Positions 6,566 to 22,492 of a stretch of DNA of 64,000 bases are shown here, piece after piece. Source of the DNA: Spirochaetia bacterium (GTDB taxonomy: Bacteria > Spirochaetota > Spirochaetia > Treponematales > Treponemataceae); NCBI GenBank assembly GCA_022768865.1, contig JALELH010000024.1, forward strand, positions 1-64,000, read 5' to 3'. Under the pieces are notes generated by a model. The model ran no database searches. It was not told the origin of the DNA and saw only the letters and a list, made by a program, of their open reading frames with translations. Position 1 is the stretch's first letter. Each line of letters begins with the position of its first letter. The position numbers and the translations under genes were made by a program.

Positions 6566-8629
6566 TTATACCCCCACATAGTGCATTACAATCACCGTTA
6601 GGTCGTCCCTTAAAGGAACAGCTTCCGTATAGGCGTTAAAGGAATCAAGAACATAATCCAGTACTTCCTTTGCCTTGCCTTTCGGTGCCTTCTTAAAAAC
6701 CTTCTGCAATAAATCAATGCCCATTTCATCTCCGGCAAGATTGCGGCTTTCTATTAAGCAGTCAGTAAATAAAAGCAGGTAAGTATCTTTTTTTACATTT
6801 GCCTTAACTGTTTCAAACTTTTCACCGTCAAGGCCCGGTATGCCCAAAAAACGCCCGCGGAAAGAACCGTCCTTGTCTCCAAGAATTCCTGTTTTGCAGG
6901 TGTCTGCGCCATAGCTTTTTACAAGCACGTCGCAGTGGCCTGCACTAACATATTCTACAAGGCTGTCCTTTACGCGCAGGAATATTCCCGTAAGGTAGTT
7001 TTCTACCATTCCTTTTTCTGCCGTTAAAGTCTTATTAAATTCTTCTATAACCTTATTAAGTTTTTTATCAAGGCCACCCATAAAAATCTTTTCTGCAAGA
7101 TACTTGGACAAAATGCCAACCAGACCCGATGCAACGCCGTGGCCTGAAACATCAAAAAGACCAGTGCCGCAGAAACGGCCGTCCCTGTCATAGTAAAAGT
7201 CGTAAAGGTCGCCGGAAACACTGGACATGGGATTAAAATAAAAGGCACAGTCCCAGTTGTCCCGGCACGGAGCAGAAACGGGGTAAAAGCTTTTCTGCAC
7301 AAGTTCTGCCATGTGCATGTCCAGTTTCTGCACGCGCTGCTGTTCCTGTAGCAGGCGGTTCTTGCGGTTTATTTCGCGCGTTCGCTCGCTTACTTCTACT
7401 GTAACAATGCTGTCCAGAAGTTCCTTTACGGTTACGATGCCAAAGTAGGCATCTTCCTTGGAAATAATCATAGGATCGTAAATGTTTTTTTCCGGGCGGG
7501 AAGTTGCCTTGGCTGCTGCCGTTTCTACAAATTCGTTGTAGTCAAGGGTTATGAACTCCTGCAGCATTAAATCCTTTACAAGCTTTTTATAATTCAGTCC
7601 GTAGCCGTACTGGCCGCCCAGGGCATCCAGCAGGGTGTTCCGCGGAATGACGCCTAAAATCTTATGATTTAAATCAACGACGGTAACAATGGAACATTCT
7701 TCGTTGGAATGGAAAAAGTGCAGAAGTTCCGTAACAGGCATGTCAGGAAAAACCGTAACGCCGCGGGTGCAAAGTTCCCCGATAGGGCGGCCTGAAGTAA
7801 TGCCGTCAAAGGTAAGTGTGCTTTCCTTCTTTTTATCTTTCTGCTTTTTGTCCTTTGTTTCTTTTTTAGGGTTTTCAAGGGATGCCTGATTCTTCCTGAA
7901 GTTGATTATTCTTGAATAGGATTCTGCACTTACCTTTGGCAGCATAAGGGCAGGCCTGGAAAAATAAAAGCCCTGTGCAAAGGAAATGCCAAGCTTTAAA
8001 ATAACGTCCAGCTCCTGGGATGTTTCTATGCCCACGGCAATCAAAATAATGCCCGATTCCTTGCAGAAGGTAACAAGGCTTTTTATCATGGACTGCCTTA
8101 TTTCGTCATTCTGGATTTCATGGATTATCTTTTTGTCTATCTTTATAAAGTCCGGGTTTAAGGCGCAGATTCTGCCCAGGCCTGAATATGCAGAGCCTGT
8201 ATTGTCAAGGCAAATCCTAAAGTCCAGAGACTTATAGTGGTTTACAATGGATAAAAGTTCTTCTTCTGCGTTGCAGCATTTTTCGCTTACTTCAAGGATT
8301 ATGCTGTTTATGCTGTTCTGGTATTTTTCTATTTTGCGCTTGGTGTAGTCGCCGTTGAATTCTTCGTCGCTCAGCAAATCCGGGTTTATGTTTATGAAAA
8401 GCTTTTTATGGTTTCTTAGCATGGCATTGGTTTTAAGGATTGTCTTGCGGCATTGCTTTTCCAGCCGCTTTTTGCTGTCCATGTCCAGGGAATCAAAATA
8501 ATCCGATACTGATTTTTCTGCTATTTTGCACAATGCTTCGTAGCCTATAATGTCTCCGTTTTCCAGTGATACTATGGGCTGGAATTCTACGTTTAGTTCT
8601 TTTTCTGCCAGGATTTTATCTATTTCCAT
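6566..8629 (-). CDS. EAL - CBS pair - SpoIIE/PP2C-type phosphatase signalling protein
   Basis: A 687-residue cytoplasmic signalling fusion. Residues ~1-245 form an EAL domain (c-di-GMP phosphodiesterase family) with E-A-L near residue 30, N-I-N-P, L-E-V-S-E, K-I-D and Q-G-F motifs. The usual D-D-F-G metal motif reads D-N-T-G, so activity may be altered. Residues ~280-415 resemble a tandem CBS nucleotide-sensing pair. A coiled linker (~415-450) leads to a SpoIIE-type PP2C phosphatase (~455-685) with S-G-D-L-Y-D-F and D-V-S-G-H-G. It probably links c-di-GMP or nucleotide status to dephosphorylation of an anti-sigma-antagonist-type target, but no such partner is adjacent. Confidence 0.85.
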   Translation of the reverse strand: MEIDKILAEKELNVEFQPIVSLENGDIIGYEALCKIAEKSVSDYFDSLDMDSKKRLEKQCRKTILKTNAMLRNHKKLFININPDLLSDEEFNGDYTKRKIEKYQNSINSIILEVSEKCCNAEEELLSIVNHYKSLDFRICLDNTGSAYSGLGRICALNPDFIKIDKKIIHEIQNDEIRQSMIKSLVTFCKESGIILIAVGIETSQELDVILKLGISFAQGFYFSRPALMLPKVSAESYSRIINFRKNQASLENPKKETKDKKQKDKKKESTLTFDGITSGRPIGELCTRGVTVFPDMPVTELLHFFHSNEECSIVTVVDLNHKILGVIPRNTLLDALGGQYGYGLNYKKLVKDLMLQEFITLDYNEFVETAAAKATSRPEKNIYDPMIISKEDAYFGIVTVKELLDSIVTVEVSERTREINRKNRLLQEQQRVQKLDMHMAELVQKSFYPVSAPCRDNWDCAFYFNPMSSVSGDLYDFYYDRDGRFCGTGLFDVSGHGVASGLVGILSKYLAEKIFMGGLDKKLNKVIEEFNKTLTAEKGMVENYLTGIFLRVKDSLVEYVSAGHCDVLVKSYGADTCKTGILGDKDGSFRGRFLGIPGLDGEKFETVKANVKKDTYLLLFTDCLIESRNLAGDEMGIDLLQKVFKKAPKGKAKEVLDYVLDSFNAYTEAVPLRDDLTVIVMHYVGV

Positions 8630-8798: not shown

Positions 8799-8891
8799 AT
8801 GCCAATGCAAAAACTTGAACTTAACTGGTGCGGAAAAGACGAAGGATTTACATACAGCCCTGACAGTAAAGAAGAAGAAAGCCATGACTGA
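8799..8891 (+). pseudogene. 31-codon ORF resembling the N-terminus of a DNA methyltransferase (remnant)
   Basis: A short ORF behind a near-consensus TATAAT (8768-8773) and an AAAGGAG ribosome site. Its start, M-P-M-Q-K-L-E-L-N-W-C-G-K-D-E, resembles the L-E-L-x-W-x-G-K-D opening of type III-like site-specific DNA methyltransferases or their partners, but the frame stops after 30 residues. Its stop overlaps the start of the next gene (TGATG). It could be a stump whose body was replaced by the DUF3791/DUF3990 cassette, or a genuine small leader ORF. The resemblance is from memory of family openings. Confidence 0.35.
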
Positions 8892-9115
8892 TGCAGAAAA
8901 AAAACGTTACTGAATTTGAGATTTTTTGTATAGAAAACGTAGCCCAAAAACTTGGTATTGCAGGGAACGAAGCATATAACCTGTTATCAGAAAAGTCGCA
9001 TATTCTTGATGAATATATTATTCCAAATTATGAAGTTCTTCATACTCAAAGTAAAGACTATATTGTAAACGACATTATTGAATGTATGGTTCAACATGGC
9101 GTCTGGAGGAAATAA
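8891..9115 (+). CDS. DUF3791-type small protein (first of two)
   Basis: A 74-residue helical protein. The pattern F-E-I-F-C-I-E-N-V-A-Q-K-L-G-I-A-G-N-E-A-Y-N-L-L then D-E-Y-I-I-P-N-Y-E-V-L-H-T-Q matches DUF3791 proteins, which are usually encoded next to DUF3990 proteins. The start overlaps the stop of the preceding short ORF by one base, and the DUF3990 gene begins one base after its stop. Function is unknown. By context it may be an antitoxin or partner for the DUF3990 product. Confidence 0.7.
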   Translation: MQKKNVTEFEIFCIENVAQKLGIAGNEAYNLLSEKSHILDEYIIPNYEVLHTQSKDYIVNDIIECMVQHGVWRK

Positions 9116-9116
9116 A

Positions 9117-9591
9117 ATGACAGTTTATCACGGTTCCTCTATAGAAGTAAAAAATCCATATGTAATTCATTCAAGAAACAATGTTGATTTTGGCAAAGGA
9201 TTTTATATAACTCCAATAAAAAGTCAGGCAGAAAAATGGGCAGAACGATATAAATTAAAATCAGGCAAGGGTATTGTTTCTTTATACAACATAAATCTTG
9301 ATAAAATAAAAGCAGAATGCAAAGTCCTTGAATTTGAAGGTTACACGGAACAATGGCTTGACTTTATCGTAAAATGCAGGAACGGGGAAAACAGTCCTTA
9401 TGACGTAATAATCGGGGGGTGTTGCAAACGATAAAGTTTTTAACACAATCGAATTATTTTTTGACAACTTGATTGATAAATCAGAAGCAATAAAAAGACT
9501 TAAATACGAAAAACCTAATCTTCAAATATGCATTACAAGGCAGGAAGTTTTAGATAACTATTTAACGTTTGTAAAAAGTGAGGAAGTCTAA
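9117..9591 (+). pseudogene. DUF3990 protein, frameshifted at a G6 run
   Basis: The frame from 9117 encodes T-V-Y-H-G-S-S near its start and D-F-G-K-G-F-Y-I-T near residue 23. These are typical of DUF3990, whose fold resembles ADP-ribosyltransferase/toxin proteins. At G6 (9414-9419) the reading frame breaks and stops at 9434. With one G fewer, translation continues as I-I-G-G-V-A-N-D-K-V-F-N-T to a TAA at 9589-9591 that overlaps the next start. A normal-length protein of ~157 residues would result. The start at 9117, behind GGAGGA, is preferred over an in-frame ATG at 9078 that lies inside the previous gene. This may be decay, phase variation or a sequencing slip. Confidence 0.7.
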
Positions 9592-9797
9592 TGCAGGCAA
9601 ACCAGATTTTATTGCAAAAAAAATACGCAAGAGTTGTTGAAGAATATGCTGTTCTTAGCGGCAGGACGTTACGGGAGTCTTTATCTGTTTTTTATTCTTC
9701 GCCTTTGTATAAAGAAATAAGCAGCGGTATTTCTGACATGCACTGCAGAAGCGACAAATACCTTGCAGAAGAATTATTGCAAAATAGCAGCATGTAA
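9591..9797 (+). CDS. DUF3791-type small protein (second)
   Basis: A 68-residue protein with the pattern K-K-Y-A-R-V-V-E-E-Y-A...S-G-R-T-L-R-E-S-L-S-V-F-Y-x-S-x-L-Y-K-E-I-S-S-G-I-S-D-M-H-C-R-S-D-K-Y-L-A-E-E-L, a common form of DUF3791. Its ATG overlaps the stop of the restored DUF3990 frame (TAATG), which argues that the intact three-gene cassette was translationally coupled. Function unknown; possibly part of a toxin-antitoxin-like unit. Confidence 0.7.
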   Translation: MQANQILLQKKYARVVEEYAVLSGRTLRESLSVFYSSPLYKEISSGISDMHCRSDKYLAEELLQNSSM

Positions 9798-9892: not shown

Positions 9893-10114
9893 GCTGCTGA
9901 CAGTACCTGCAGCATAATGCGGATAGCACCTACAGCATGTTGCGGATAGCACCTACGGCATAATGCGGATAGTACCTACAGCATGTTGCGGATAGTCCTA
10001 CAGTATAATGCTGACAGTACCTGCAGTATGATGCTGATAGTCCATCAGTATGATGTTGATAGTCCTAGAGCATTCTGAAAATAGTCTATAGAGATTCTGA
10101 TAATAGTCCATGCA
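9893..10114 (+). repeat. Degenerate tandem array of ten 22-23 bp units
   Basis: Ten consecutive units of 19 (first, partial), 23, 23, 23, 22, 23, 22, 22, 23 and 22 bases can be laid end to end. The core is approximately G-C-A-T-R-A-T-G-C-K-G-A-T-A-G-Y-A-C-C-T-A-C-A. Units 2-5 (9912-10002) are nearly identical and alternate GCATAATGC with GCATGTTGC; units 6-10 drift progressively. There are no unique spacers, so it is not a CRISPR. It carries no open frame I can support. It sits between the DUF3791 cassette and the HNH gene. The function is unknown; a two-helical-turn period suggests repeated protein binding or simple slippage growth. Confidence 0.8.
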
Positions 10115-10226: not shown

Positions 10227-11264
10227 ATGTCACAGACAAGATGGAATTCAGACAGCAATAGTGTACCCTTCCGCCCGATAGCAGAAGACGACGTCATAGC
10301 AATGGTAAACAAAGCTTTGTCTGGAAATTCCCATCATACAACAACGTATAAATATGCCTTTTTTAAGTCCCTGATAGACAATGTTTTTAATGTAGACCTT
10401 GATACGGACTTTCTTTCCTATGACAATATTGCGTCGCGGTTTACAGAAATTTACTGGAATCTTGTGTTGAATTATCACTTGCGCCAGGAAATCAAAACAT
10501 CCCGGCATGAATTTACAAGCGTTGAAAAGGAACTGTTTGCATTCTGTGATAAGTATGGATTCTGCTATAAAGAAAAAATGAGCATTTTTCCGTTTGAAAG
10601 CCTAAAGCCAGATTTGCAGCTTGAAATTATAAAAAATGTAAAGAAGCAGATGATGAAAAATGTTGTAGCAGCCTTTTGCGGAGATACTGACGATCAGTTC
10701 TATCATTTTAATAAAAAAGATAAATCCGACGGAATAACTTTAAACCATGATGTTTTTGTTGCGCTTGTAAAATACAAATCAGTTTTTGAAAAGCAGAATT
10801 ATTATGAATGGATAAAGTATCTGGAAAAGGCAAACCTTGAAGAAGATTCCTATGCCCTTGCAAATAAGCTGGATGCATCTACAGAAAGGCAGAACTTAAA
10901 CCCTTACAGAGTCATACTGAAGGACTTTAACCAGACCAGATGTTTTTATTGCGGTCGTATGCTTAAAGAAGACAATAAAAGTACTCCTGTAGACCATTTT
11001 ATTCCATGGTCTTTTGTAAAGGATGATAAGCTTTGGAACTTTGTTTTAGCGTGCCCTTATTGCAACAGTGCTAAATCCAACATTCTGCCTGCACGCAGTT
11101 ATTTTAGCGCGATTAAAGAACGGAATGCCAGATTGTGCAATGTGGATTTGCCTATGGTAAGGCAGGATTTTAAATCCTACTCATATTTTAAGCTGGAAGA
11201 AATGTGGCATTCTGCCGTGTTCAACGGTTTTGAAGAAGGCTGGTCCGCAAAAGTGATGTTGTAG
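10227..11264 (+). CDS. HNH endonuclease domain protein
   Basis: A 345-residue protein with a C-terminal HNH nuclease: zinc pair C-F-Y-C-G (~239-242), catalytic D-H-F-I-P-W-S (~256-262), and second pair C-P-Y-C-N (~275-279) followed by K-S-N-I-L-P. The N-terminal ~230 residues are mostly helical and unrecognised, and may sense a target. This HNH type is common in standalone phage-defence genes. It lies at the left border of the defence operon but is separated from it by the invertible segment. It could be an independent defence gene or the operon's effector. The start follows AAGGCC with weak ribosome-site match. Confidence 0.8.
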   Translation: MSQTRWNSDSNSVPFRPIAEDDVIAMVNKALSGNSHHTTTYKYAFFKSLIDNVFNVDLDTDFLSYDNIASRFTEIYWNLVLNYHLRQEIKTSRHEFTSVEKELFAFCDKYGFCYKEKMSIFPFESLKPDLQLEIIKNVKKQMMKNVVAAFCGDTDDQFYHFNKKDKSDGITLNHDVFVALVKYKSVFEKQNYYEWIKYLEKANLEEDSYALANKLDASTERQNLNPYRVILKDFNQTRCFYCGRMLKEDNKSTPVDHFIPWSFVKDDKLWNFVLACPYCNSAKSNILPARSYFSAIKERNARLCNVDLPMVRQDFKSYSYFKLEEMWHSAVFNGFEEGWSAKVML

Positions 11265-11290: not shown

Positions 11291-11593
11291 ATGGTTGATT
11301 CAGATACTTTAAAAGAATTACTTAATGACTATAAAAAATTATTCAAGGAAGATTATATTGTCTACGATGTGTTTAATTGTGATGAAGAACTTGTTGACTG
11401 CATAAAAAACAAAAAAAAACAGAAAAAACAGGATAGGCCATCTCATGAAGAAATTGAAGAATTAAGGAAAAGATACAAAGAAAAATTTGGGGTTGAATGT
11501 TATTATGGAGATTATTACAGAAGAGGTGCCTTTTACTGTAAATATTACATTCTTAACGAGTTGAGAAAAAGTGAAGCAACGTTAAGGATATAG
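11291..11593 (+). CDS. Small charged hypothetical protein
   Basis: A 100-residue protein I do not recognise. It has a lysine/glutamate-rich middle (K-N-K-K-K-Q-K-K-Q-D-R-P-S-H-E-E-I-E-E-L-R-K-R-Y) followed by an aromatic patch (C-Y-Y-G-D-Y-Y-R-R-G-A-F-Y-C-K-Y-Y). The start follows GGGAGT 26 bases after the HNH gene, so the two may be co-transcribed. If the invertible promoter at 11783-11811 fires in the sequenced orientation, its transcript would run antisense across this gene. Confidence 0.5.
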   Translation: MVDSDTLKELLNDYKKLFKEDYIVYDVFNCDEELVDCIKNKKKQKKQDRPSHEEIEELRKRYKEKFGVECYYGDYYRRGAFYCKYYILNELRKSEATLRI

Positions 11594-11603
11594 TTAACCA
11601 ACG

Positions 11604-11756
11604 TTAGGAAAGATGATTAGATAAACAAGAAAAGTGAAGGATGTTCTCACCAAAAGGCAAAAATATTAAATTAAATAAAAAATAGTGATACAAAAAAGGT
11701 TCGTTTTTAGTAGCACTTTGATTTGTATTTTCTTTATGATTTTCCTGCAAATTCAT
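11604..11756 (-). CDS. 50-codon ORF driven by the invertible promoter in the sequenced (OFF) orientation
   Basis: On the minus strand an ATG at 11754-11756, preceded by GGAAAGAG, opens a 50-codon frame. Its first 19 codons (M-N-L-Q-E-N-H-K...S-A-T-K-N-E) lie inside the invertible segment. After the left repeat it runs into unrelated sequence and stops at TAA 11604-11606. I read it as the detached start of the operon's first gene joined to a dead-end tail, not as a functional gene. Confidence 0.35.
   Translation of the reverse strand: MNLQENHKENTNQSATKNEPFLYHYFLFNLIFLPFGENILHFSCLSNHLS
11699..11715 (+). repeat. Left 17-bp inverted repeat of the inverton
   Basis: GTTCGTTTTTAGTAGCA, perfect over 17 bases to the reverse complement of 11873-11889. 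The match does not extend in either direction, which is typical of a site-specific recombination half-site. Confidence 0.85.
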
Positions 11757-11782
11757 ACTCTTTCCATTAAAATGATAGAATT

Positions 11783-11811
11783 ATTGTAGCACAAATAAGC
11801 ATTTTAAGCAA
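11783..11811 (-). promoter_or_regulatory. Promoter inside the invertible segment, pointing away from the operon
   Basis: On the minus strand, TTGCTT (11811-11806), a 17-base spacer and TACAAT (11788-11783) preceded by TG-C form an extended -10 promoter. About 27 bases after the -10 comes the ATG at 11756-11754 behind GGAAAGAG. As sequenced it reads leftward toward the HNH gene; after inversion it would read into the defence operon. Confidence 0.65.
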
Positions 11812-11872
11812 AAATAATCAGTTTTTGTTAATGATTTTTCCTAAACATATGGTTACTTAAAATATAAAAGCC

Positions 11873-11889
11873 TGCTACTAAAAACGAAC
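11873..11889 (-). repeat. Right 17-bp inverted repeat of the inverton
   Basis: TGCTACTAAAAACGAAC, the exact inverse of 11699-11715. It lies in the reading frame of the downstream gene (A-T-K-N-E), so inversion keeps the frame whichever repeat copy supplies it. Confidence 0.85.
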
Positions 11890-11939
11890 GTTTAAAGTGT
11901 CATACTTGTTATAAGGACTTTTCTGCTTCAGTTGTATTT

Positions 11940-13571
11940 TTGTGCCCAGACTGTAATGTTCCTGTAATTCAAGAAAAAAACGAAAACGGTAATTTCTGCC
12001 CGGAATGTAAAAGCAAGCTTACGTATCTGGCATCAGATTTGCGGCCTGTTTATCCTAAAGAAAGGCTGCTTTTTGAATTGATTAAAAAAGTCCCGTTGAA
12101 ATATATAGACGATTCTGTATGGTGTTCAAACAATAAATATTACATAAACGGTAAGGTTCAGAATTTATCAAATACAGAACTTGAAAAAGCTGACATAGAA
12201 GAAATTATTGACGGTTTGGAAAAATATAAAATTCAAAATGAAAAGAATAATTTTGATTTTTATATTAGAAAATTTTGCAAGGTAAACAAAAACAGGTTAG
12301 ATGAAATAACGGATGAAGCATTTTCTTTTGTAAAGGAAGTTGCAGATTCTGTAAATAACGAAAACCTTGTAATTTCATTCAGCGGTGGAAAAGATTCAAC
12401 TGTCACGGCGGATGTTGTTACAAAGGCGCTGAGCAATCCAAGTATAGTTCATATTTTCGGTAACACAACACTTGAATTTGAAACAACTTTAGAATATGCA
12501 GAACGTTACAAGAAAAATCATCCCTACGCAATTTTCATGACTGCAAAAAATGAAGACCAAACCTTTATGAAAGTTGCAGAAGATATTGGACCGCCTGCAA
12601 GAATGATGCGGTGGTGCTGTTCCATGTTTAAAACCGGTCCCATTTCAAGAATACAGAATAATTTATTTGGAACAGAACGAATAACGACTTTTTACGGAAT
12701 AAGAAAAGTAGAATCAGTTTCTCGAAGCAAATATAACAGAATCCAAAAAGGCGGAGAGGATGTAAAAATCCAAAAGCAGACAGTTGCTTCTCCAATTTTC
12801 TTTTGGAAAGACTGCGACATTTGGCTTTATTTGACTTCAAACGATGTTGATTTTAATGATGCTTATAAACTTGGTTATGACCGTGTAGGATGCTGGTGCT
12901 GCCCGAACAACAACAGCCGTGCTCAGTTTTTGGCTCAAATCTATATGAAAGATAAATATAAAGCCTGGAGAGAATTCCTGATTTCCTTTGCAAAAAAGGT
13001 TGGCAAGCCAGACCCTGAAGTTTACGTAGACAGCGGAAAATGGAAAGCACGGCAAGGCGGCAATGGATTAAAATCCAGCGAAGACGTAAAGATTAAATTT
13101 ACAAACTGCACAACAGAAGAACACGCTAAGATTTACAGGATAAATAAAAGATGTGATGAAAGCTTTACAAACCTTTTTGTACCGTTTGGAAAAGTTTCTA
13201 AAGAATTGGGACAGAAGATAATAAATGAAACATTGGTTTTAGATGTAAAAACAAACGTGCCGATTATTTCAATTCAGCCCTTTGCAAAAAATGATTTTGA
13301 TTTTGCTGTAAAAGTAAAAACAATGAATGCAAGTGACCACGAAGATTTACAGCGGCGGATTGGCTATCAGGTGCGAAAATTCAATTCATGCAGACAATGC
13401 TTAAAATGTGAAGCTCTTTGCACAAAAGGAGCAATTTCCATTATAGGAAATTCATATTTTATTGATGAAACAAAATGTATCCATTGCAAAATGTGTGTTT
13501 CTCAAAAGTATTTAACAGGCGGATGCATGATGGATAAATATTTAAAAACGAAGGCAGAAGAAAATGACTGA
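11940..13571 (+). CDS. DndC-like PAPS-reductase/ATP-pyrophosphatase enzyme with zinc-ribbon N-terminus and ferredoxin C-terminus
   Basis: Likely the sulfur-insertion enzyme of a DNA phosphorothioation-type system. Visible parts: zinc-ribbon cysteines (C-P-D-C, C-P-E-C), PP-loop S-G-G-K-D-S at residues ~148-153, R-W-C-C-S-M-F-K and G-C-W-C-C-P cysteine motifs, and a C-terminal 4Fe-4S region (C-R-Q-C-L-K-C-E-A-L-C; C-I-H-C-K-M-C). TTG at 11940 is only the first in-frame start-like codon and has no ribosome site. The open frame extends back to 11868 and encodes a further C-H-T-C pair, so the true start lies on the invertible segment (11699-11889) in its opposite orientation. It is the first of nine tightly packed genes, overlapping the DUF4007 gene by 8 bases. 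Confidence 0.85.
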   Translation: MCPDCNVPVIQEKNENGNFCPECKSKLTYLASDLRPVYPKERLLFELIKKVPLKYIDDSVWCSNNKYYINGKVQNLSNTELEKADIEEIIDGLEKYKIQNEKNNFDFYIRKFCKVNKNRLDEITDEAFSFVKEVADSVNNENLVISFSGGKDSTVTADVVTKALSNPSIVHIFGNTTLEFETTLEYAERYKKNHPYAIFMTAKNEDQTFMKVAEDIGPPARMMRWCCSMFKTGPISRIQNNLFGTERITTFYGIRKVESVSRSKYNRIQKGGEDVKIQKQTVASPIFFWKDCDIWLYLTSNDVDFNDAYKLGYDRVGCWCCPNNNSRAQFLAQIYMKDKYKAWREFLISFAKKVGKPDPEVYVDSGKWKARQGGNGLKSSEDVKIKFTNCTTEEHAKIYRINKRCDESFTNLFVPFGKVSKELGQKIINETLVLDVKTNVPIISIQPFAKNDFDFAVKVKTMNASDHEDLQRRIGYQVRKFNSCRQCLKCEALCTKGAISIIGNSYFIDETKCIHCKMCVSQKYLTGGCMMDKYLKTKAEEND

Positions 13572-14475
13572 AACAGAAAAAAATAAAGAATTAAAATTCC
13601 GCGCTCATGAAAGCTTTTACATCCGTAAAGGCTGGCTTTCTAAGGGAATGAAAAACGTTGCAAAGAAAAATGATTTATTCATTGATAAAAATGTTCCGGC
13701 TACAGTTTCTCTTGGACTTGGAACTAATATGGTTAAATCCTTAAAATATTGGCTTGGCGTTACAGGCTTAATAGAAAAAGATACAAAGAAAGGATGCGTA
13801 AAGCTTTCTGACTTTGGAAAAACACTTTTTGAAAATGACAAATATCTGGAAGAAATGGGAACAATACAGCTTTTGCAATATAAGCTGGCATCTAATTTTT
13901 GCGAAGCTACTTCCTGGTTTTACTTTTTCAATGAATTTAATTTTATTGAATTTACAAAAGAAGATTTTATTCTGGAAATCAGAAAATTCATTTCAGAAAA
14001 GTCTGCCAAAGAAATTCAGGATTCCTCTTTAGCAAGTGACTTTGAATGCATTATCAATACTTATCTTTCTAAACATAAAACTACGGAAGAAGAAATTGAT
14101 CCGGAAAATAATATTTCCTGCCCGTTGGCAGAACTGAATTTAATTTCTGTCGCCCATAAGAAAAACGGTATTACAACTTATAAAAAAACTTCATCGTCAT
14201 CTTTAAGTTTTAATAAATGGATAATTCTTGCAATTATCTGTGACAATGCAAAAGGAAAGCTTGAAATATCCATAGATGATTTGCTCAATGCCCAATGCAA
14301 TATAGGAAAATGCTTTAATTTGGATTCAATTTTGCTGCTTGATATTTTACAGAATATCGAAAAGTCCGGCGAATTAAAAATAATAAGGACAGCTGGTCTT
14401 GATGTAATTCAGCTAACGAAATTATTTTCTTTTGAAGACTGTGTTCAGAATTTCTACAAGGAATTGAATAAATGA
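13564..14475 (+). CDS. DUF4007 family protein
   Basis: A 303-residue protein with the DUF4007 opening F-R-A-H-E-S-F-Y-I-R-K-G-W-L-S-K-G-M (residues ~12-28), a winged-helix-like region with L-G-x-G-T-N-M-V-K-S-L-K-Y-W-L, and A-T-S-W-F-Y-F-F-N-E-F-N near 115. DUF4007 proteins are commonly encoded beside PAPS-reductase-like genes in defence islands. They probably bind DNA or act as adaptors, but the function is not established. It overlaps the preceding gene by 8 bases and the following ATPase gene by 4, so translation is coupled. A shorter relative with the same mid-domain pattern is encoded at 27787-28605. Confidence 0.85.
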   Translation: MTETEKNKELKFRAHESFYIRKGWLSKGMKNVAKKNDLFIDKNVPATVSLGLGTNMVKSLKYWLGVTGLIEKDTKKGCVKLSDFGKTLFENDKYLEEMGTIQLLQYKLASNFCEATSWFYFFNEFNFIEFTKEDFILEIRKFISEKSAKEIQDSSLASDFECIINTYLSKHKTTEEEIDPENNISCPLAELNLISVAHKKNGITTYKKTSSSSLSFNKWIILAIICDNAKGKLEISIDDLLNAQCNIGKCFNLDSILLLDILQNIEKSGELKIIRTAGLDVIQLTKLFSFEDCVQNFYKELNK

Positions 14476-17400
14476 ATGAAATGATAAAAATAGAAGATGG
14501 CTTTCAATACTCTGTAAACATTGCATACGATTTGCAAAACAAAAAGAAGTTGCAGTCGTTTATTCCCACACACGATGCACTTAAATTTATAGAAGAAATC
14601 CTGTTAAGCACAAAATCAGATTCAACGGAAAGGGCGCGTGTTTTAGTCGGTGCATACGGAAAGGGAAAATCTCATCTTGTCTTGACGGTTTTAAATTTAT
14701 TAAAGGACGAACCTTTGGAAAAGTTTCCTAAATTAAAAAAGGAAATTGAAAAAGACAATAAGTTAAAGGCTTTGATTCAAAATTATTCTGAAAGCAAATG
14801 TAAGCTGCTGCCTGTTTTAATAACAGGAACTTCTTCCAGTGTAAGCCAGAATTTTTTGAATGCATTGGAAAAAACTCTTTTACAAAACAAGTTAGACAAT
14901 CTGATGCCTGAAACTAATTTTAAGTCTGCAATTCAGACAATTCTACGCTGGCAGAAAAAATACCCTAAAACACTTTTACAGTTTGAAGAACAAATTGGAA
15001 AAAAGGCAGAAACCATAATTGAAAAACTTCAGGATTATAATAACAAGACTTATGAACAGTTTTTGAAGATTTATCCTGAACTGACTTCCGGTGGCAAGTT
15101 TAACCCTTTTGGTTCTTTTGATGTTGTAGAAATTTTTGAAAGTGTTATAAAAAGTCTTAAAGAAAAAACTGAATATACAGGCATTTATGTTGTTTATGAT
15201 GAGTTTTCAAAATATCTTGAAACAAATATTGCTGAAGCCACAATCAGCGATACAAAAATGCTTCAGGATTTTGCAGAAAAATGTAACCGTTCCGGAAAAG
15301 AGCAGCTTCATTTAATGCTTATTTGCCATAAAGAAATCAGCAATTACATTGATAAATTGCCAAAGCAGAAAATTGACGGCTGGCGTGGTATAAGCGAAAG
15401 ATTTTTGCATGTTCGATTGAATAATAATTTTTCACAAACTTATGAAGTCATTCAAAATGTAATCATTAAAGATGAAAAGTTATGGAATGAATTTGCCAAA
15501 AAAAACGAAGAAAAGTTTCAAGGTCTTATTTCAAAAGAAACGGTATCTTTGTTTAATGAATTTTCTAAGGAACAAATAAAACAATTGCTTGAAGGATGCT
15601 ATCCTCTTCATCCTGTTTCAATCTATATTCTTCCACGTCTTTCTGAAAAGATTGCACAAAACGAAAGAACTCTGTTTACCTTTTTGTCTTCAAAATCTGC
15701 AAATGGTCTTGAAAAGTTTTTACAGAAACATAATCAGGATAAATTTAATTTATTAACTCCGGATGTTTTGTATGACTATTTTGAACCTTTATTTCAAAAA
15801 GAAATTTATTCTGATGAATTATATAAAACCTATATTTTGACTTCAAAAATACTGGAAAAGATTTGTGATAACAGTCTTGGTTCAAAGATTATAAAGACAA
15901 TTTCTTTAATCTATATTCTTCAGATATTTGAAAAACTTACTCCATCAAAAAATACGATTATTGAATCTTTCCGCTTTGACTATTCAAGAGAAGAGGTTGA
16001 AAAGGCGTTAGATAGTCTTGTAAAAAATGAATGCCTTGTTTATTTAAAGCGCAGCAATAATTTTTATTCATTAAAGCAAAGTTCCGGTGTTGACATTACA
16101 GCAGAAATTCAAAAAAGAATTCAAAAGAATTCTCATAACTTTTCTTTAAAACAGACGCTGAATCAATGCAATTTTAACAAATTTCTTTATCCGCTACGCT
16201 ATAATGATGAAAACGAAATAACCCGTTATTTTTCATTCAGTTTTATTGCCCAGGATGAAATTAAAGAAGACACAAACTGGACTATAAAAAGTGAAAATAT
16301 AAAAGCCGACGGTGTTATTTATGCAGTTTTGTTAAAGACTAAAAATTCCAGAAAAGAAGTTTTAGATTCCTTGACTAAAAACAGTTATTCTTCAAAATGT
16401 GTTTTTATTCTACCCAAGAAATTTGCAGAAATAGAAAAAATAGCACAGGAATTGAATGCCGTTGCTGAGTTAAAATCTGAATGCCAGCAGGATTCTGTTT
16501 TACAGAATGAATATGAAATTATTTATGACGATTTAATGGAAGTTATTGATAATTTTGTTTCTATCTATACGCAAAGCCAGAATGCTAATGCAGATTACTT
16601 TTATAATGGCGAAATTAAAATCATAAAAAGAAAGTCTGATGTTTCAGAACTGCTTTCTGATATTTGTGATAAGTTTTATTCAAAAACACCAGTAATTGTA
16701 AACGAGGCATTGAATAAAAATATTATAACAAGCATGTCCCTTCGTTCCAGAAATAAAATTGTTGCAGAACTTTTAAAGACAAACCTTCAGAAGCAGCTGG
16801 GTATTACTTCAAGTCAGGAACTTTCTGTCATGCAAAGCGTTTTGTATAAAACTCAAATCCTTTGTGATGATGAAAAATCAGATTGTGCAAAAATAAATTT
16901 GATTCCAGCTGATAAAAAAGTATCTTTCTGTTTGGATTTAATTAAGAATTATTTTACTAGTATAAAACAAGGCAAGCAAAAAAGTTTTGAACTTCTTTAT
17001 AAAGATTTGACTTCTGATAAAAATGGCATCGGAATGCGTAAAGGAATCATTCCGTTGCTTATTGCATGTGTTATTCATGAATATAAAAAGCAGATTATTT
17101 TTTATCATCATGCAGAACAGGTTTTGCTTTCTGTTGAGCTGCTTAATAAAATAAATGAAACCCCTGAAGAATATTCTGCAGGCTTTATGGACTGGTCTAA
17201 AAATGAAGAAGATTTTGTAAATGATCTGGCTTTGATTTTTGAACAATACATAAATGACAGCGAAAAAAATAATTCCTATGACTTTGTATTTAATGCAATG
17301 CGCCGTTGGTATGTTTCTTTGCCTAAATTTACTAAAGAAACTCGGCTTTCATACTGTAATTCAGAAATACCACTAGTTTACAAAGCATTCTTAAAAGATT

Positions 17401-18077
17401 TAAGGCAGGCAGCAAGCAGTCAGGATTTTATTTTCGTAAAACTAAAGAAATCATTTGCTTCTGTCAATGAAATAAAAAATGCAAAAGTTTATTTTGATGA
17501 AGTTTTAGAAAAACTGATTTTATTTTTCAAGAACGAAGTTTATAAAGTTTTTGCAAGCCAAGATGAAAAAGAAAAGACACTTTGCAAGGTTTTATTTGAT
17601 TGGTCTGATTCATTAAATAAAGCGGTTTTTAATGTTGTCTTTAGTGATAATACTTCTAAATTCCTTCAAACTTGTAATGTGCAGAATGATTCTGATTTAT
17701 ACCTGATAAAACAAATCGGACTTATTGCAACAGATTTAAAGTTTGAAGACTGGAATGATAAAACTTTTGAAACCGCAATTAAAAACATAAAAGGCTTTAA
17801 GGCTAATGCTGAAAATTCTTCCTTTGAGGGTTCAGTCTTAGATAATCGGAACAATCAGGCAGTGGCCTTAAAGCCAGATTCTTATCAGCTTAATTTTGCA
17901 GATAAAGATGGAAAGTTGCAATCTAAGATTTTTGATAAAGCAGAACTTAGTCAAACTGCATTTCTTTTAGACCGTTCAATTAGGAATTCAATTAAAGGTA
18001 TGGCTCTTTCCATTAACGAAAGTGAAAAACGTCAGGTTTTAGTAAACATTCTTTTGGAATTATGCGGAGGTAAATGA
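14472..18077 (+). CDS. Large P-loop ATPase 1 (BrxC/PglY-like architecture)
   Basis: A 1201-residue ATPase. Walker A G-A-Y-G-K-G-K-S-H lies at residues 60-68 and Walker B V-V-Y-D-E-F-S-K-Y-L-E near 240. An arginine-rich G-W-R-G-I-S-E-R-F segment follows near 310, then Y-P-L-H-P-V-S-I-Y near 380; the rest is helical. The layout (early P-loop, D-E-F, Y-P-L-H-P, long helical tail) is like BREX BrxC/PglY ATPases. It shares these motifs in order with the 1411-aa protein at 28618, so the two are probably paralogues. In place of SMC-like DndD, it may power the modification complex with the DndC-like and DUF4007 proteins. This role is inferred from position. Confidence 0.75.
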   Translation: MNEMIKIEDGFQYSVNIAYDLQNKKKLQSFIPTHDALKFIEEILLSTKSDSTERARVLVGAYGKGKSHLVLTVLNLLKDEPLEKFPKLKKEIEKDNKLKALIQNYSESKCKLLPVLITGTSSSVSQNFLNALEKTLLQNKLDNLMPETNFKSAIQTILRWQKKYPKTLLQFEEQIGKKAETIIEKLQDYNNKTYEQFLKIYPELTSGGKFNPFGSFDVVEIFESVIKSLKEKTEYTGIYVVYDEFSKYLETNIAEATISDTKMLQDFAEKCNRSGKEQLHLMLICHKEISNYIDKLPKQKIDGWRGISERFLHVRLNNNFSQTYEVIQNVIIKDEKLWNEFAKKNEEKFQGLISKETVSLFNEFSKEQIKQLLEGCYPLHPVSIYILPRLSEKIAQNERTLFTFLSSKSANGLEKFLQKHNQDKFNLLTPDVLYDYFEPLFQKEIYSDELYKTYILTSKILEKICDNSLGSKIIKTISLIYILQIFEKLTPSKNTIIESFRFDYSREEVEKALDSLVKNECLVYLKRSNNFYSLKQSSGVDITAEIQKRIQKNSHNFSLKQTLNQCNFNKFLYPLRYNDENEITRYFSFSFIAQDEIKEDTNWTIKSENIKADGVIYAVLLKTKNSRKEVLDSLTKNSYSSKCVFILPKKFAEIEKIAQELNAVAELKSECQQDSVLQNEYEIIYDDLMEVIDNFVSIYTQSQNANADYFYNGEIKIIKRKSDVSELLSDICDKFYSKTPVIVNEALNKNIITSMSLRSRNKIVAELLKTNLQKQLGITSSQELSVMQSVLYKTQILCDDEKSDCAKINLIPADKKVSFCLDLIKNYFTSIKQGKQKSFELLYKDLTSDKNGIGMRKGIIPLLIACVIHEYKKQIIFYHHAEQVLLSVELLNKINETPEEYSAGFMDWSKNEEDFVNDLALIFEQYINDSEKNNSYDFVFNAMRRWYVSLPKFTKETRLSYCNSEIPLVYKAFLKDLRQAASSQDFIFVKLKKSFASVNEIKNAKVYFDEVLEKLILFFKNEVYKVFASQDEKEKTLCKVLFDWSDSLNKAVFNVVFSDNTSKFLQTCNVQNDSDLYLIKQIGLIATDLKFEDWNDKTFETAIKNIKGFKANAENSSFEGSVLDNRNNQAVALKPDSYQLNFADKDGKLQSKIFDKAELSQTAFLLDRSIRNSIKGMALSINESEKRQVLVNILLELCGGK

Positions 18078-19219
18078 TGGCGTATTTTGATAATGCAGCA
18101 ACAACTTTTCCAAAACCAGATTGTGTTTATGATTTTATGACGGAATTTTACAAAAGTTCTGGTGGAAATTATGGCCGTGGAAATTCATCGCAGGCAAAAA
18201 GTTCTGGCGTTATTATAAATGAAACACGGAATTTACTGCTGGAACTTTTTCATTGTCCTGCCAATCAGGTTATTTTTACTCCAAGTGCAACAATTGCGTT
18301 GAATATGATTATTCATGGGCTTGTCTTTAAAGGTGCAATAAATATTTATATTTCGCCATTTGAACATAATGCCGTAACACGGGTTTTGCATGCTATGGAA
18401 AAAACTCACGAAATAAAGGTTCATGTTTTAGATTGTGATGAGGACTTGAATTACGATTTTGAAAAAATCAAATATGCCTTTGAAGAAAATAAACCGGATT
18501 TAGTAATAGTCAGTCACGTAAGCAATGTTATCGGCTTGATTTCTCCTGTAGAAAAAATCTTTGAAATTGCTAAAAGTTTTAATGCCGTAACTGTTGCTGA
18601 TTGTTCTCAAAGTGCAGGTCTTGTGGATTTGAATTTAAGTCAGAATTTTGATTTTGCAGTCTTTGCCGGACACAAAACTCTTTACGGACCAACAGGAATC
18701 AGCGGTTTTATAATGAAAAAAGATTTTAATCTTCCGTCGGTTTTATTTGGTGGTACAGGCTTTGAAAGTTTGAATCAGGATATGCCTTCTTCTTTGCCTG
18801 AAAAGTTTGAAATGGGAACGCAGAATATTTTAGGAATTGCAGGCTTAAATGCCAGCTTAAAGTGGATAAAAGAAATTGGAGTTCAGAAACTTTTTGAAAA
18901 AGAAGTCCAAAACAGAAAATGTCTTTTAGAGATTTTTGAAAAATATGATTTTATAAAAGTTGTAGGCAATTCACAGAACCAAAATTTCACAGGCATTGTA
19001 AGCATTTTGTTAGACGGAATTTCAAGCGACAGTGCGTCAGCTGTATTTTCTGAACGCAATATTTCCGTAAGGACAGGTTTGCAATGTGCGCCGTTTGCAC
19101 ACAAGTTTTTAGGAACAAGCCCTGCTGGAACGATACGCTTCAGCACAGGGTGGTTTACCAATGATAAGGATTTTGAAGAATTAGAAAACGCTTTGAAAGA
19201 TATTGAAGATTTGATGTAA
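18074..19219 (+). CDS. Cysteine desulfurase family protein (DndA-like role)
   Basis: A 381-residue PLP-dependent class V aminotransferase that probably releases sulfur from cysteine for the DndC-like enzyme. Lys201 in A-G-H-K-T-L-Y-G is the PLP lysine. Cys338 in R-T-G-L-Q-C-A-P-F-A-H-K-F-L-G-T is the likely persulfide cysteine. H-x-x-x-V-T-R and S-H-V-S-N-V-I-G motifs are present. The R-T-G-x-x-C-A-P form is distinct from the IscS/NifS-type desulfurase at 45566-46744, so this copy is not the housekeeping one. Its start overlaps the ATPase stop by 4 bases, showing it belongs to the operon. Confidence 0.88.
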   Translation: MMAYFDNAATTFPKPDCVYDFMTEFYKSSGGNYGRGNSSQAKSSGVIINETRNLLLELFHCPANQVIFTPSATIALNMIIHGLVFKGAINIYISPFEHNAVTRVLHAMEKTHEIKVHVLDCDEDLNYDFEKIKYAFEENKPDLVIVSHVSNVIGLISPVEKIFEIAKSFNAVTVADCSQSAGLVDLNLSQNFDFAVFAGHKTLYGPTGISGFIMKKDFNLPSVLFGGTGFESLNQDMPSSLPEKFEMGTQNILGIAGLNASLKWIKEIGVQKLFEKEVQNRKCLLEIFEKYDFIKVVGNSQNQNFTGIVSILLDGISSDSASAVFSERNISVRTGLQCAPFAHKFLGTSPAGTIRFSTGWFTNDKDFEELENALKDIEDLM

Positions 19220-19234
19220 GAGGAAGGAAAAATT

Positions 19235-20950
19235 ATGAATGAACCGAATGCAAATTATATTGATTATTTAAATTCTCTTAACAGTTATAACGCAAAAAAC
19301 AAAAATGCTTATAGTGAAACAAATATTGAAAACAGTTTTTATAAACAGATGGCAGTTGAAGTTGGAATTTCCAAATACATTTCTTCAATAATAATGACTT
19401 CATCTCCGCAAGTTATAATTCTGTCAGGTCAGGCTGGAGATGGAAAAACAAGCATAATGTACCAGGTTGTAAATCAACTTGATTCGGAATATGAAATCAA
19501 GACAAAGGTAAATATTTTTGATATTACAGTTCAAGATAAAAAATGTACTTTTATAAAGGATTTCAGTGAATTGCCTGATGTAGAAAAAATTAAGAAATTA
19601 AAAGAAATTCTTTCATATCCTTCAAATAATAAATTTGCATTTATCGTTGCAAATACAGGACCTTTAATCAATACATTTGGTTCTCTTTTTGAAGAAGATA
19701 AAAGAGAAGATGCAAAAATGAAATTGATTGAGGCAATTAGAACAAGTGATGGCAAACAGAAGCCAATTTGTGGATATTCAATTTCTGTAATCAACATGGC
19801 TTCGATTGATAACAGCTATTTTTCTCCAAAATATCTTGAAAAGATTATTGATTCAAAGTTATGGAAAAAATGTAGTTCATGTGAAAAAAAAGATTTCTGT
19901 CCTATTTTTCGTAATCGGAATCTAATGGCACAGAATCCTGAATCGGTTCAGAATTTTCTGGAAAATCATTATATATGGTTGTCGGAACATGGCACAAGAT
20001 TGACTGTAAGAAGCATAATTGAACAGTTGTCATTCATGCTGACCGGCGGACTTTCATGTTCTTCCATTAAAAACGTGAACAATTCAAAATATTTATTTCC
20101 AAATTTATTTTTTGGTCTTTTAGGTTTTCAAAAAGATTCCAAAGCATTAAAAATGAATGCAGTAAAAGCCGCTTCGTCAAATGAATACTATTTAAAAAAG
20201 ATGCGTATTGATGAGCAGCTTATAGTAAAAGGTGATTATGAAAGTCTGTTTTCTGCCGAATGGGTGAACATAATTAAGAATATCGAAAAATCAGTTGATT
20301 TAAAATCAGATTTAGATAAAGAACGCAATTTGTTTTATTCTTTTTTGCGGAGAGTCTACATATTTCAAAACAATTCATCTGAAGAACAGAGAAAATGGGA
20401 TTTGGAAGACATTTTTTCAAGGAATTTTAAAACTTACCTTGATTACCGGAAAAACAATGCAAATATTCCAAGTAAAATCAAAAAACCGATTTTAGATGCA
20501 CTTTCCATGATTTATACAGGAATAAAAATAGGAAGCGGAAATAAAGTTCCCGTTACTCTCAATAAAAAATCAGGTGTTTTGCAAACAGTCCAGTTTGTTA
20601 CAGGTTATCTTGATACTGATGATTTTGATATAGAAAAAGTAAAATCAAATGATGGAAAAATCAACCAGACGAATGACATTTATTATTTTTATCCAACTGT
20701 AAAAGACGAACGTTTAAATATCAGATTGACACTGCCTTTGCTGGATTATTTTGATAATTTGCAGAAAGGAATTATTGAAACAGATATAGACCCGTTGCTT
20801 TCCAATGGCATTGAAAACTTAAAGGTACAAATTTCTGCAAAACTTGAAAGAAAAAAATCTTCAGGCCAATTTGAGTTGCTTATTGTAAAAAACAATGGAA
20901 ATAAAGCACTTAAATTGGAAATGTCTGACGATCAGATTTCCATACTATAG
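19235..20950 (+). CDS. dptF: DNA phosphorothioation-dependent restriction protein DptF
   Basis: A 571-residue ATPase matching DptF (DndF) in length and position, just before DptG- and DptH-like genes. The Walker A motif S-G-Q-A-G-D-G-K-T-S lies at residues 64-73. A zinc-like cluster C-S-S-C-E-K-K-D-F-C is near 211-221. In known Dnd systems, DptFGH restrict DNA that lacks phosphorothioate marks. It begins 16 bases after the desulfurase, behind AGAGGAAGG. Assignment rests on motif, length and gene order. Confidence 0.82.
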   Translation: MNEPNANYIDYLNSLNSYNAKNKNAYSETNIENSFYKQMAVEVGISKYISSIIMTSSPQVIILSGQAGDGKTSIMYQVVNQLDSEYEIKTKVNIFDITVQDKKCTFIKDFSELPDVEKIKKLKEILSYPSNNKFAFIVANTGPLINTFGSLFEEDKREDAKMKLIEAIRTSDGKQKPICGYSISVINMASIDNSYFSPKYLEKIIDSKLWKKCSSCEKKDFCPIFRNRNLMAQNPESVQNFLENHYIWLSEHGTRLTVRSIIEQLSFMLTGGLSCSSIKNVNNSKYLFPNLFFGLLGFQKDSKALKMNAVKAASSNEYYLKKMRIDEQLIVKGDYESLFSAEWVNIIKNIEKSVDLKSDLDKERNLFYSFLRRVYIFQNNSSEEQRKWDLEDIFSRNFKTYLDYRKNNANIPSKIKKPILDALSMIYTGIKIGSGNKVPVTLNKKSGVLQTVQFVTGYLDTDDFDIEKVKSNDGKINQTNDIYYFYPTVKDERLNIRLTLPLLDYFDNLQKGIIETDIDPLLSNGIENLKVQISAKLERKKSSGQFELLIVKNNGNKALKLEMSDDQISIL

Positions 20951-20959
20951 AGGTGAATT

Positions 20960-22492
20960 ATGAGTAATAAAGTTTTTCCTGCCGTACGAGATGAAAATGA
21001 AGAAAAATATCCTCCAGAAAAAAATAAATTGAGCAGACAAATTTTTGGCAACAGATTTTTGTCTGACCAAAATCTTTATGAATATCTGATTGAGTTTTTA
21101 CTTATTTTTGTTTCCGCAAAAGAAGAAAATGGAATTGAAGGTAAATTAAAATTTCATGATTCAAACGATTCTCTGTTTAGCTATTATGTTCAGCCAAGGT
21201 TAGGACTTAAAAGATTCATTTTTTACAACTATTCCAAAAAAGATAAATCGCTGCCTCAGGATAGGGATGCTTTAAAACTATTATGGACCGAACTTTCCAA
21301 AAAAATTGATAGTTCCGATGAAAAAGAAAAAAAAGAAATAATTGAATCTCTTCAGGATTTCTTTTACGGATATGCTGTAATCTTGAAAAAAAGGTCTTGG
21401 TGTGCTCAAGCCATTATGCCGTTATGTCCTGAACTAGTCTTTTGTGAAACTTCGCCCAATTTGAAGAAAAGAAAGAAGAATGTTGACTGGGAAAATGATA
21501 AAAAAACTATAGATACAAAGTTTGGGCATAAGCAGCGTAACTTTTTGGCAAGGGGCGGGGAGTTATATTATCTTCATCTTTTGCAGGGCTTGGAAAATCG
21601 ACCTGATGATAAAAAACAACTGGAGCTTTTGCTCAAAAATCTGATGACGGGCGATTCAAAAAAAATCTCAAACATAGCCAGTTTCATTCAGAATACTTGG
21701 GAAAAAGCCATTGGAGCGACTCCAGCAGATTTACAGGAAGAATTTTCATTGGATTTCATTCCTGTAAATGCATATAAGAATTGTGAAGACAATTCAATTT
21801 CTGAATTACTTAATTATTTGTCATGTCAGCTTCCTGTTGTCCGCAGACTGGATTTGCTTGCTAAGGGAATTATGTTTCAGGTTATGCGCATGATGTCTGT
21901 GGCAGTTGCTTCATATTTGGAAAGCAGCGAATTGCCATGGATAATTGATGTGTGTGGTTCAAAATCCTTTAAAAAATTCTGTCATAAAAGCTATAAATTA
22001 TTGGAAGAATCTTTTGACAGTGCATTAAATAAAGCGGGAACAAATTCTTCTGATAAAGAAAATACTCCTTCAAAGAAATATGAACATTTTAGAAAAGAAA
22101 AAACGGCATTTGCTTTTGGCATCTTTAAATCAAAAGGCAAGGAACTCCACTGCATTATTCCGACAAAAGGTCAGGATGAACGGTTCAGCATTTCAGAAGA
22201 TATTGTTTCATTTTTAGTTTTGTCAATTATTCCGCCAGAACAGCAAATGACATTTGATATGTTTTTAGAAAAAATATATGAACATTATAAAATTGTTGTT
22301 TCTGCAAAGGAATTTTCTAAATCCACAGCCTATACCTCGGAATTAGCAAACAGTTTGTCAAAAAGTTTTGAAGAAAATTCAGCTGCCTTTGAAAAACTTT
22401 TGAATAGTACGGGATATTTGATTGAATTATCAGACGCCACTTCTGTCGTGCAAAATCCATATAAGAGAATAGAAATCCAGGAGAATAAATAA
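20960..22492 (+). CDS. dptG: DNA phosphorothioation-dependent restriction protein DptG-like
   Basis: A 510-residue protein between DptF and DptH, which is the DptG position. I see no nucleotide-binding motif. It is helical and basic, with an aromatic N-terminal region (S-Y-Y-V-Q-P-R-L-G-L-K-R-F-I-F-Y) and a C-terminal winged-helix-like stretch. Its size is in the DptG range. The start lies behind GAGGTG, and its stop overlaps the DptH start by one base (TAATG), implying stoichiometric expression. Identity is inferred mainly from synteny. Confidence 0.72.
   Translation: MSNKVFPAVRDENEEKYPPEKNKLSRQIFGNRFLSDQNLYEYLIEFLLIFVSAKEENGIEGKLKFHDSNDSLFSYYVQPRLGLKRFIFYNYSKKDKSLPQDRDALKLLWTELSKKIDSSDEKEKKEIIESLQDFFYGYAVILKKRSWCAQAIMPLCPELVFCETSPNLKKRKKNVDWENDKKTIDTKFGHKQRNFLARGGELYYLHLLQGLENRPDDKKQLELLLKNLMTGDSKKISNIASFIQNTWEKAIGATPADLQEEFSLDFIPVNAYKNCEDNSISELLNYLSCQLPVVRRLDLLAKGIMFQVMRMMSVAVASYLESSELPWIIDVCGSKSFKKFCHKSYKLLEESFDSALNKAGTNSSDKENTPSKKYEHFRKEKTAFAFGIFKSKGKELHCIIPTKGQDERFSISEDIVSFLVLSIIPPEQQMTFDMFLEKIYEHYKIVVSAKEFSKSTAYTSELANSLSKSFEENSAAFEKLLNSTGYLIELSDATSVVQNPYKRIEIQENK

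Follow-up and report, generated by a model that had tools for sequence, protein, structure and literature searches.

Several described systems bear on the locus reported here. The recombinases of the Hin/Gin/Cin/Pin group, whose work includes flagellar phase variation in Salmonella, act on inverted sites with a 2-bp core, and invertons, known mainly from Bacteroidales and gut commensals, toggle a downstream operon by flipping a short segment; many known invertible promoters are flipped by tyrosine recombinases. Inversion within hsdS underlies phase-variable restriction-modification. Among phosphorothioation (PT) systems, SspABCD-SspFGH pairs modification with a restriction module, SspFGH, that damages and is toxic to cells without PT (PMC8092258). 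Type IV nucleases of the SBD-HNH kind (ScoMcrA, SprMcrA, and Hga) carry a sulfur-binding domain (SBD) that is winged-helix-related (PMC10853773), and SBD nucleases restrict the transfer of a PT gene cluster into E. coli (PMC6224610). A search of the open-access literature, with subscription papers outside its scope, returned no paper tying PT systems to phase variation by inversion, and no such system for invertible promoters with BREX, for inversion in Treponema, or for inversion in type IV restriction.

We analyzed a 64,000-nucleotide stretch of DNA (the window) from a spirochaete of the family Treponemataceae. It contains a 191-bp segment that is, very probably, a site-specific inversion switch with 26-bp sites, worked in trans by a serine invertase of the Hin/Gin type and carrying the start of sspD, 19 codons and probably a promoter.

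The predicted invertible segment and the operon beside it

The features to which the text refers are as follows; the limits of the invertible segment are based on its arms and on natural flips of the equivalent segments in relatives.

10227 to 11264, plus strand: HNH nuclease gene with a predicted sulfur-binding-domain-like N-terminus, with its own ATG, outside the switch
11291 to 11593: 100-aa open reading frame separating the HNH gene from the switch; neither Pfam nor PADLOC gave a match, and the collected loci contain no relative
11688 to 11713: left site, hix-like, 26 bp, ACAAAAAAGG-TT-CGTTTTTAGT, core TT at 11700-11701
11699 to 11889: predicted invertible segment, 191 bp, drawn in the orientation OFF for sspD
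11699 to 11715: left 17-bp arm, GTTCGTTTTTAGTAGCA, a perfect inverted match to the right arm
11754 to 11756, minus strand: start codon ATG carried by the segment; the first 19 codons read MNLQENHKENTNQSATKNE
11765 to 11758, minus strand: Shine-Dalgarno-like GGAAAGAG, upstream of the ATG
11783 to 11811, minus strand: possible promoter TTGCTT-17-TGcTACAAT (TGCTACAAT), which would point into sspD after inversion
11873 to 11889: right 17-bp arm, TGCTACTAAAAACGAAC
11875 to 11900: right site, ACTAAAAACG-AA-CGTTTAAAGT, core AA at 11887-11888, the reverse complement of the left core
11868 to 13571, plus strand: sspD, PAPS-reductase family, an open frame whose start codon is missing in the present orientation
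13564 to 14475, plus strand: sspB (DUF4007)
14472 to 18077, plus strand: sspC ATPase
18074 to 19219, plus strand: sspA/dndA cysteine desulfurase
19235 to 20950, plus strand: sspF
20960 to 22492, plus strand: sspG
22492 to 27783, plus strand: sspH/dndH-like translocase
27787 to 28605, plus strand: second SspB-like protein (DUF4007), diverged, after sspFGH
28618 to 32853, plus strand: second SspC-like protein, diverged, ending the operon

A preliminary description of this DNA had reported perfect 17-bp inverted repeats bounding 191 bp, and we confirm them; one such pair was observed, whereas second-order Markov simulations of the window (pairs within 1 kb) led us to expect 0.025 per 64 kb. Its account of the two half-genes also holds. 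The frame that begins at the minus-strand ATG (11756-11754) is open through the repeat, and the plus-strand frame to the right is open from 11868 without a start, the first start codon being TTG at 11940. When the segment is flipped in silico, the ATG is fused in frame to sspD, giving MNLQENHKENTNQSATKNERLKCHTC... (MNLQENHKENTNQSATKNERLKCHTCYKDF...). Judged from the reading frames, the orientation as assembled leaves the operon OFF, with sspD lacking a start.

The promoter fared less well. The extended -10 element described earlier does exist, but it does not rise above expectation: two promoter-like sites were found in the segment against 2.6 ± 1.6 in shuffled sequence, and the opposite strand of the segment scores equally well. 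A promoter for sspD within the segment is plausible, though not significant by itself; a strong TTAACA-17-TGnTATAAT directed toward sspD is present in the cassettes of two relatives (G198 and G170).

To the right of the segment lies a nine-gene operon (11868-32853, plus strand) in which every gene is an open frame and neighboring genes overlap by at most 8 bases or are at most 15 bases apart. PADLOC E-values run from 4e-11 for SspD to 3e-127 for SspC, and the SspA, B, C, and D modification genes and sspFGH, the gene set of SspABCD-SspFGH, are all present; the gene in the SspH position matches both DndH and SspH, with the higher score for DndH. The system is Ssp (SspD-B-C-A-F-G-H followed by a second B/C-like pair) and not Dnd; the preliminary description had called the leading protein DndC-like. 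BREX with BrxP was also considered, as the best PADLOC match of sspD is BrxP, yet SspC outscores BrxC, and we rejected it because neither PglZ nor BrxL is among the nine genes.

We also abandoned the idea that inversion restores a zinc ribbon in SspD. The CHTC motif lies outside the inverted segment, and switch-bearing relatives have no Cys pair at its position; most SspD proteins without the switch begin MWCKNCNIET...CPICG. The first Cys of CHTC is a by-product, because the site sequence translates as RLKC.

Two further observations concern the DNA to the left. Just 5' of the HNH gene is a tandem array (9905-10109) of six copies of a 22- to 23-bp unit, ACCTACAGCATAATGCGGATAGC, and at 8891-9797 a DUF3990-like gene lies amid DUF3791-like genes, a set that matches the PADLOC candidate defence system PDC-M13.

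Relatives in both orientations, recombination sites and a candidate invertase

We compared 80 SspD relatives from GTDB genomes and further relatives from 200 genomes of the genus. Most SspD proteins in this collection have no repeat upstream of their start. The switch was found at eight Treponema loci, namely, the window, T. saccharophilum DSM 2985 (G019), and genomes G015, G167, G030, G139, G198, and G170, and at all eight an inverted pair of sites marks the ends of a segment that is 136 to 968 bp long. The orientation is ON, with an in-frame ATG for SspD, in G015, G030, and G198 and OFF, without one, in the window, G167, G019, G139, and G170; a ninth contig (L064), which ends 139 bp upstream of the match, is likewise OFF. 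As each orientation gives or removes the sspD start at these eight loci, the earlier reading of an ON/OFF start-codon switch for a PT-type defence operon, caught OFF, is supported.

The flipped form, which the preliminary description suggested seeking in related genomes, was found, with opposite orientations in two genome pairs. Between G030 and G139, the 895-bp segment between the sites is inverted (94% identity, minus strand) while the flanks are collinear; G198 and G170 have the same segment in opposite orientations, again with collinear flanks. In addition, the N-terminus computed for a flipped T. saccharophilum segment, MQKEDSTKNVPFSAH, agrees with MQQEDSTKNVRFSAH, the ON form that occurs naturally in G030. 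The paired genomes are different species, so what they show is inversion in evolution, between species. On the SspD tree, the switch label changes at least three times on well-supported branches, and none of 500 label shuffles was equally clustered; switch-type SspD is spread over at least three separate lineages. Viral contigs yielded one SspD relative, without a switch.

The larger cassettes (L136:1731-2506 in G030, L137 in G139, and L134/L135 in G198/G170) contain small toxin-antitoxin-like modules, which pair a GNAT-like protein with one of 67 aa or consist of BrnT/BrnA-like genes (named by eye from sequence), and the same GNAT-like type is also found in the cassettes of G137, G031, and G165. 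The promoter of these modules could drive whichever target is joined to the cassette.

The 17-bp arms are parts of hix-like serine-invertase sites (AAACG-NN-CGTTT). In alignment, the sites share a 26-bp quasi-palindrome, (GCT)ACAAAAAACG-NN-CGTTTAAAGT, and at the eight Ssp loci and other paired loci the two cores of a pair are always reverse complements and never palindromic (AA/TT, AC/GT, AG/CT, and GA/TC overall, with AA/TT or AC/GT at the Ssp loci). On contig C48 of the window's own genome, a pair with direct arms has cores GT and AC, and the core alone must therefore set polarity; orientation set by a 2-bp core is the rule for Hin, Gin, and other small serine invertases. The site is also translated: ACAAAAAACGNNCGTTTAAAG is read as T-K-N-x-R-L-K, the right site of the window gives ATKN-E-RLK at the start of SspD, and in switch targets generally, a cassette-encoded peptide of variable sequence that ends in TKN comes first, after which the outer half-site contributes xRLK or xRF. 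The cassette thus provides the N-terminus of the target protein and not a promoter alone.

The same genome has two more site pairs, on contigs C12 and C48. At C12:8999-9119 (L141 about 8000-8115), AC/GT cores lie 109 bp apart between divergent genes for a NeuB-like sialate synthase and a Stealth capsule phosphotransferase; to judge by these neighbors, the pair is likely an invertible promoter for surface polysaccharide, possibly under the same invertase as the window switch. At C48:17392-17548 (L142 about 9390-9550), GT/AC cores 145 bp apart separate a DUF3990 operon from a PD-(D/E)XK (PF12784) gene, and the pair is flanked by a DUF3990/DUF3791-like set akin to that at 8891-9797 of the window. 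Site-like matches without a partner were taken as chance (G012/G013, in an adhE-like gene with the palindromic core CG; G115/G122; G146 C18; and C72 and C99 of the window's genome). Some contigs end no more than 15 bases from a site (G071 C72 and G144 C65), which is what a mixture of orientations would produce.

In G030, G139, and G167, the switch has a serine recombinase gene as its neighbor; no invertase gene adjoins the window locus. Its genome does encode homologues on other contigs, a full-length one on C24 (71% identical) and another on C73 (64% identical), plus fragments. The C24 protein runs for about 212 aa from an internal ATG with the family-wide invariant residues intact, and the best PDB matches of the invertase homologue are DNA invertase Gin (4m6f and 3uj3). 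The full-length C24 gene is the best candidate for an invertase acting in trans on the window segment. Across 196 genomes of the genus, a close invertase (at least 70% identity) is present in 17 of the 24 that bear sites versus 34 overall (nominal hypergeometric P of 3e-10 from counts that we drew from lists, kinship ignored). No recombination site turned up in the DNA examined near the candidate invertase genes. The region C73:3600-9500 (L145) has three serine invertase copies related to one another, two of them truncated and one full-length; among them lie fragments of restriction-type methylases and a gene resembling an ATP-binding transcription regulator.

The HNH gene and other modification-nuclease pairs

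An HNH-protein gene adjoins the switch at seven of the eight Ssp loci, divergent from sspD at six of these; at ssp loci lacking the switch, it was absent from the stretches examined. In G139, where Ssp is OFF, the HNH gene is joined in frame to the cassette ATG (MQQEDSTKNVRLNEQIITINQSSGWDTKENLIPF...), and in G030, where Ssp is ON, this HNH frame lacks a start; in G015 and G167, the end of a leader frame and the HNH start overlap as ATGA. The arrangement of these frames indicates that in the relatives one start-codon cassette serves either Ssp or HNH, and in the G139/G030 pair expression would accordingly be either/or. For the window, we rejected the HNH gene as the present alternative output of the switch: it is encoded on the plus strand and has an ATG of its own, the leftward frame extends only ~30 codons beyond the site, and the protein belongs to a 74 to 80% identical subgroup whose stand-alone copies are found elsewhere without sites. 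With its HNH gene outside the switch, only ON/OFF applies to the window, not either/or.

The window HNH protein matches PF13395 (E value of 2e-11) and has invariant DH and N and near-invariant Cys residues. The top structural neighbors of its AlphaFold model are the SBDs of Hga (8h0l, Z of 8.7) and SprMcrA (7ccd, Z of 7.2), and the C-terminus of the model has a Cas9-like HNH fold. When the N-terminal domain of the T. saccharophilum protein (pLDDT of 86.8) was used alone, the first three matches were SBDs (Z of 7.9, 6.9, and 6.4) and the next, at 4.0, was unrelated. These are moderate VIA-align scores (Z of 6.4 to 8.7), and with Foldseek alone the SBD match was not ranked significant by E value; helical folds often give middling Z, and we therefore present the SBD assignment as a prediction. 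Residues Y41-K42 are invariant in the HNH alignment and Y76 is near-invariant; they could correspond to the sulfur-pocket pairs of ScoMcrA, H116/R117 and Y164/P165 (PMC6224610). From the models, the N-terminal domain is predicted to bind PT-DNA and the HNH protein to be a PT-dependent nuclease.

Further loci were chosen by site sequence alone. In G081, G111, and G199, a C5 cytosine methyltransferase and a type IV methyl-directed restriction enzyme (ResIII/DUF3427/PLD) stand across the sites from each other; the three copies of the type IV enzyme that were scanned gave PADLOC E-values of 1e-158 or better, and those in G016 and G018 were assigned by sequence similarity. In G137, a McrB-like protein faces a methyltransferase; altogether, the same sites part a C5 methyltransferase from a type IV nuclease in six genomes. 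In G081 it is the nuclease that is ON, with the tag joined to it, and the methyltransferase lacks a start; G111 and G199 have the methyltransferase ON. It was from this pattern that the HNH partner of Ssp was predicted to be PT dependent, a prediction written down before the structure test.

On balance, we favor a reading in which a family of Treponema serine-invertase switches with a translated tag (...TKNxRLK...) makes a modification enzyme (Ssp or C5 methyltransferase) and a nuclease attacking that modification (SBD-like HNH, type IV enzyme, or McrB) mutually exclusive, with one cassette serving both and the window keeping the writer arm only. Sharing one start-codon cassette, writer and reader-nuclease would not be made together from the switch, and because SBD nucleases restrict the transfer of a PT cluster, such exclusivity would avoid self-restriction.

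Proposed mechanism, alternatives and known systems

In the mechanism that we propose, a trans-acting serine invertase would flip the segment at random. In the ON orientation, the SspD start would be supplied and the nine-gene operon transcribed, with PT modification and SspFGH made together; because the site itself is translated, recombination would join the cassette peptide (...TKN) to SspD in frame. In the OFF orientation, sspD would have neither start nor promoter, and cells would make neither PT modification nor SspFGH; the loss of both matters, since SspFGH without PT damages the host. In relatives, OFF cells would instead make the predicted PT-reading HNH nuclease; a writer and a modification-dependent nuclease that were both on would destroy their own host, and the switch would keep them apart. 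The sites, the frames, the natural flips, the site-invertase association and the recurrent pairing of modification genes with nucleases are seen in the sequences; we infer action of the invertase on the sites, flipping within populations, promoter activity, transcription that follows orientation and PT dependence of the HNH protein.

If this is true, PT defence would be heritably heterogeneous within a clone, and inversion that chooses writer or nuclease would let a lineage retain both of two incompatible options. An HNH family that is uncharacterised would also gain a predicted function, and the translated recombination site offers a search key for more switched defence loci; T. saccharophilum DSM 2985 is cultured, so the switch is directly testable.

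The purpose of the switch might be different, namely, to vary modification-dependent gene expression (a phase-variable epigenome) rather than to avoid self-restriction or control phage defence. Rewiring of transcription by phase-variable methyltransferases is well known, and a C5 methyltransferase is the target of several sister switches. We nevertheless consider this unlikely, as the genes opposite the modification genes are, repeatedly, nucleases, and SspFGH is a restriction module toxic without PT (PMC8092258).

It is improbable that the segment is a frozen relic, inverted once and no longer acted on by an invertase, with the Ssp operon permanently silent. A relic would be in keeping with the lack of an invertase beside the window site, the location of the candidates on other contigs (two of the C73 copies being truncated) and the single orientation known for the window species; however, the full-length C24 invertase is intact at family-conserved residues, the arms are perfect over 17 bp, the ATG and its frame are kept, all nine genes are open, and two other site pairs persist in the genome. 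Flipping by a tyrosine recombinase (Mpi- or FimB/E-like or XerC/D) instead of a serine invertase is a decidedly poor prospect: two PF00589 genes are present on C54, but we set such enzymes aside because the sites are 26-bp quasi-palindromes in which a nonpalindromic 2-bp core alone sets orientation (as on C48) and because serine invertases are associated with the sites at both genome and locus levels. Mechanical ORF calling chooses TTG 11940, yet a chance repeat with sspD translated from that codon or another upstream start is scarcely credible given 0.025 such pairs expected per window and the same architecture, with complementary cores, at eight loci including two natural flips.

Read as a serine-invertase switch, the locus is closest to Hin/Gin/Cin/Pin, with which the Treponema switches share inverted, quasi-palindromic sites of ~26 bp with a 2-bp core, a Gin-like recombinase and a single cassette that alternately serves two outputs; unlike those systems, they target defence operons, carry a start codon in the cassette and have a site translated into the target, and at the window locus the putative invertase would act in trans. 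As in invertons, the state of a downstream operon would depend on a short segment flanked by inverted repeats, but the window host is a spirochaete, the recombinase is probably of the serine rather than the tyrosine type, the target is PT defence, and the window cassette includes the ATG and the first codons of its target. SspA, B, C, D, F, and G and an SspH/DndH-like gene share one operon, as in SspABCD-SspFGH (PMC8092258), whereas the window has the order D-B-C-A-F-G-H, an extra SspB-like/SspC-like pair and the SspD start under a switch. Like ScoMcrA, SprMcrA, and Hga, the Treponema HNH protein has a predicted sulfur-binding-like domain followed by a C-terminal HNH; it differs in being short (about 345 aa), with no SRA domain found, and in that its expression in Treponema relatives would be inversely coupled to the PT writer. 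Finally, as in hsdS inversion, recombination alters the state of a DNA-modification defence, but here it is the whole operon that would be switched and not specificity, and in relatives modification would alternate with a modification-dependent nuclease.
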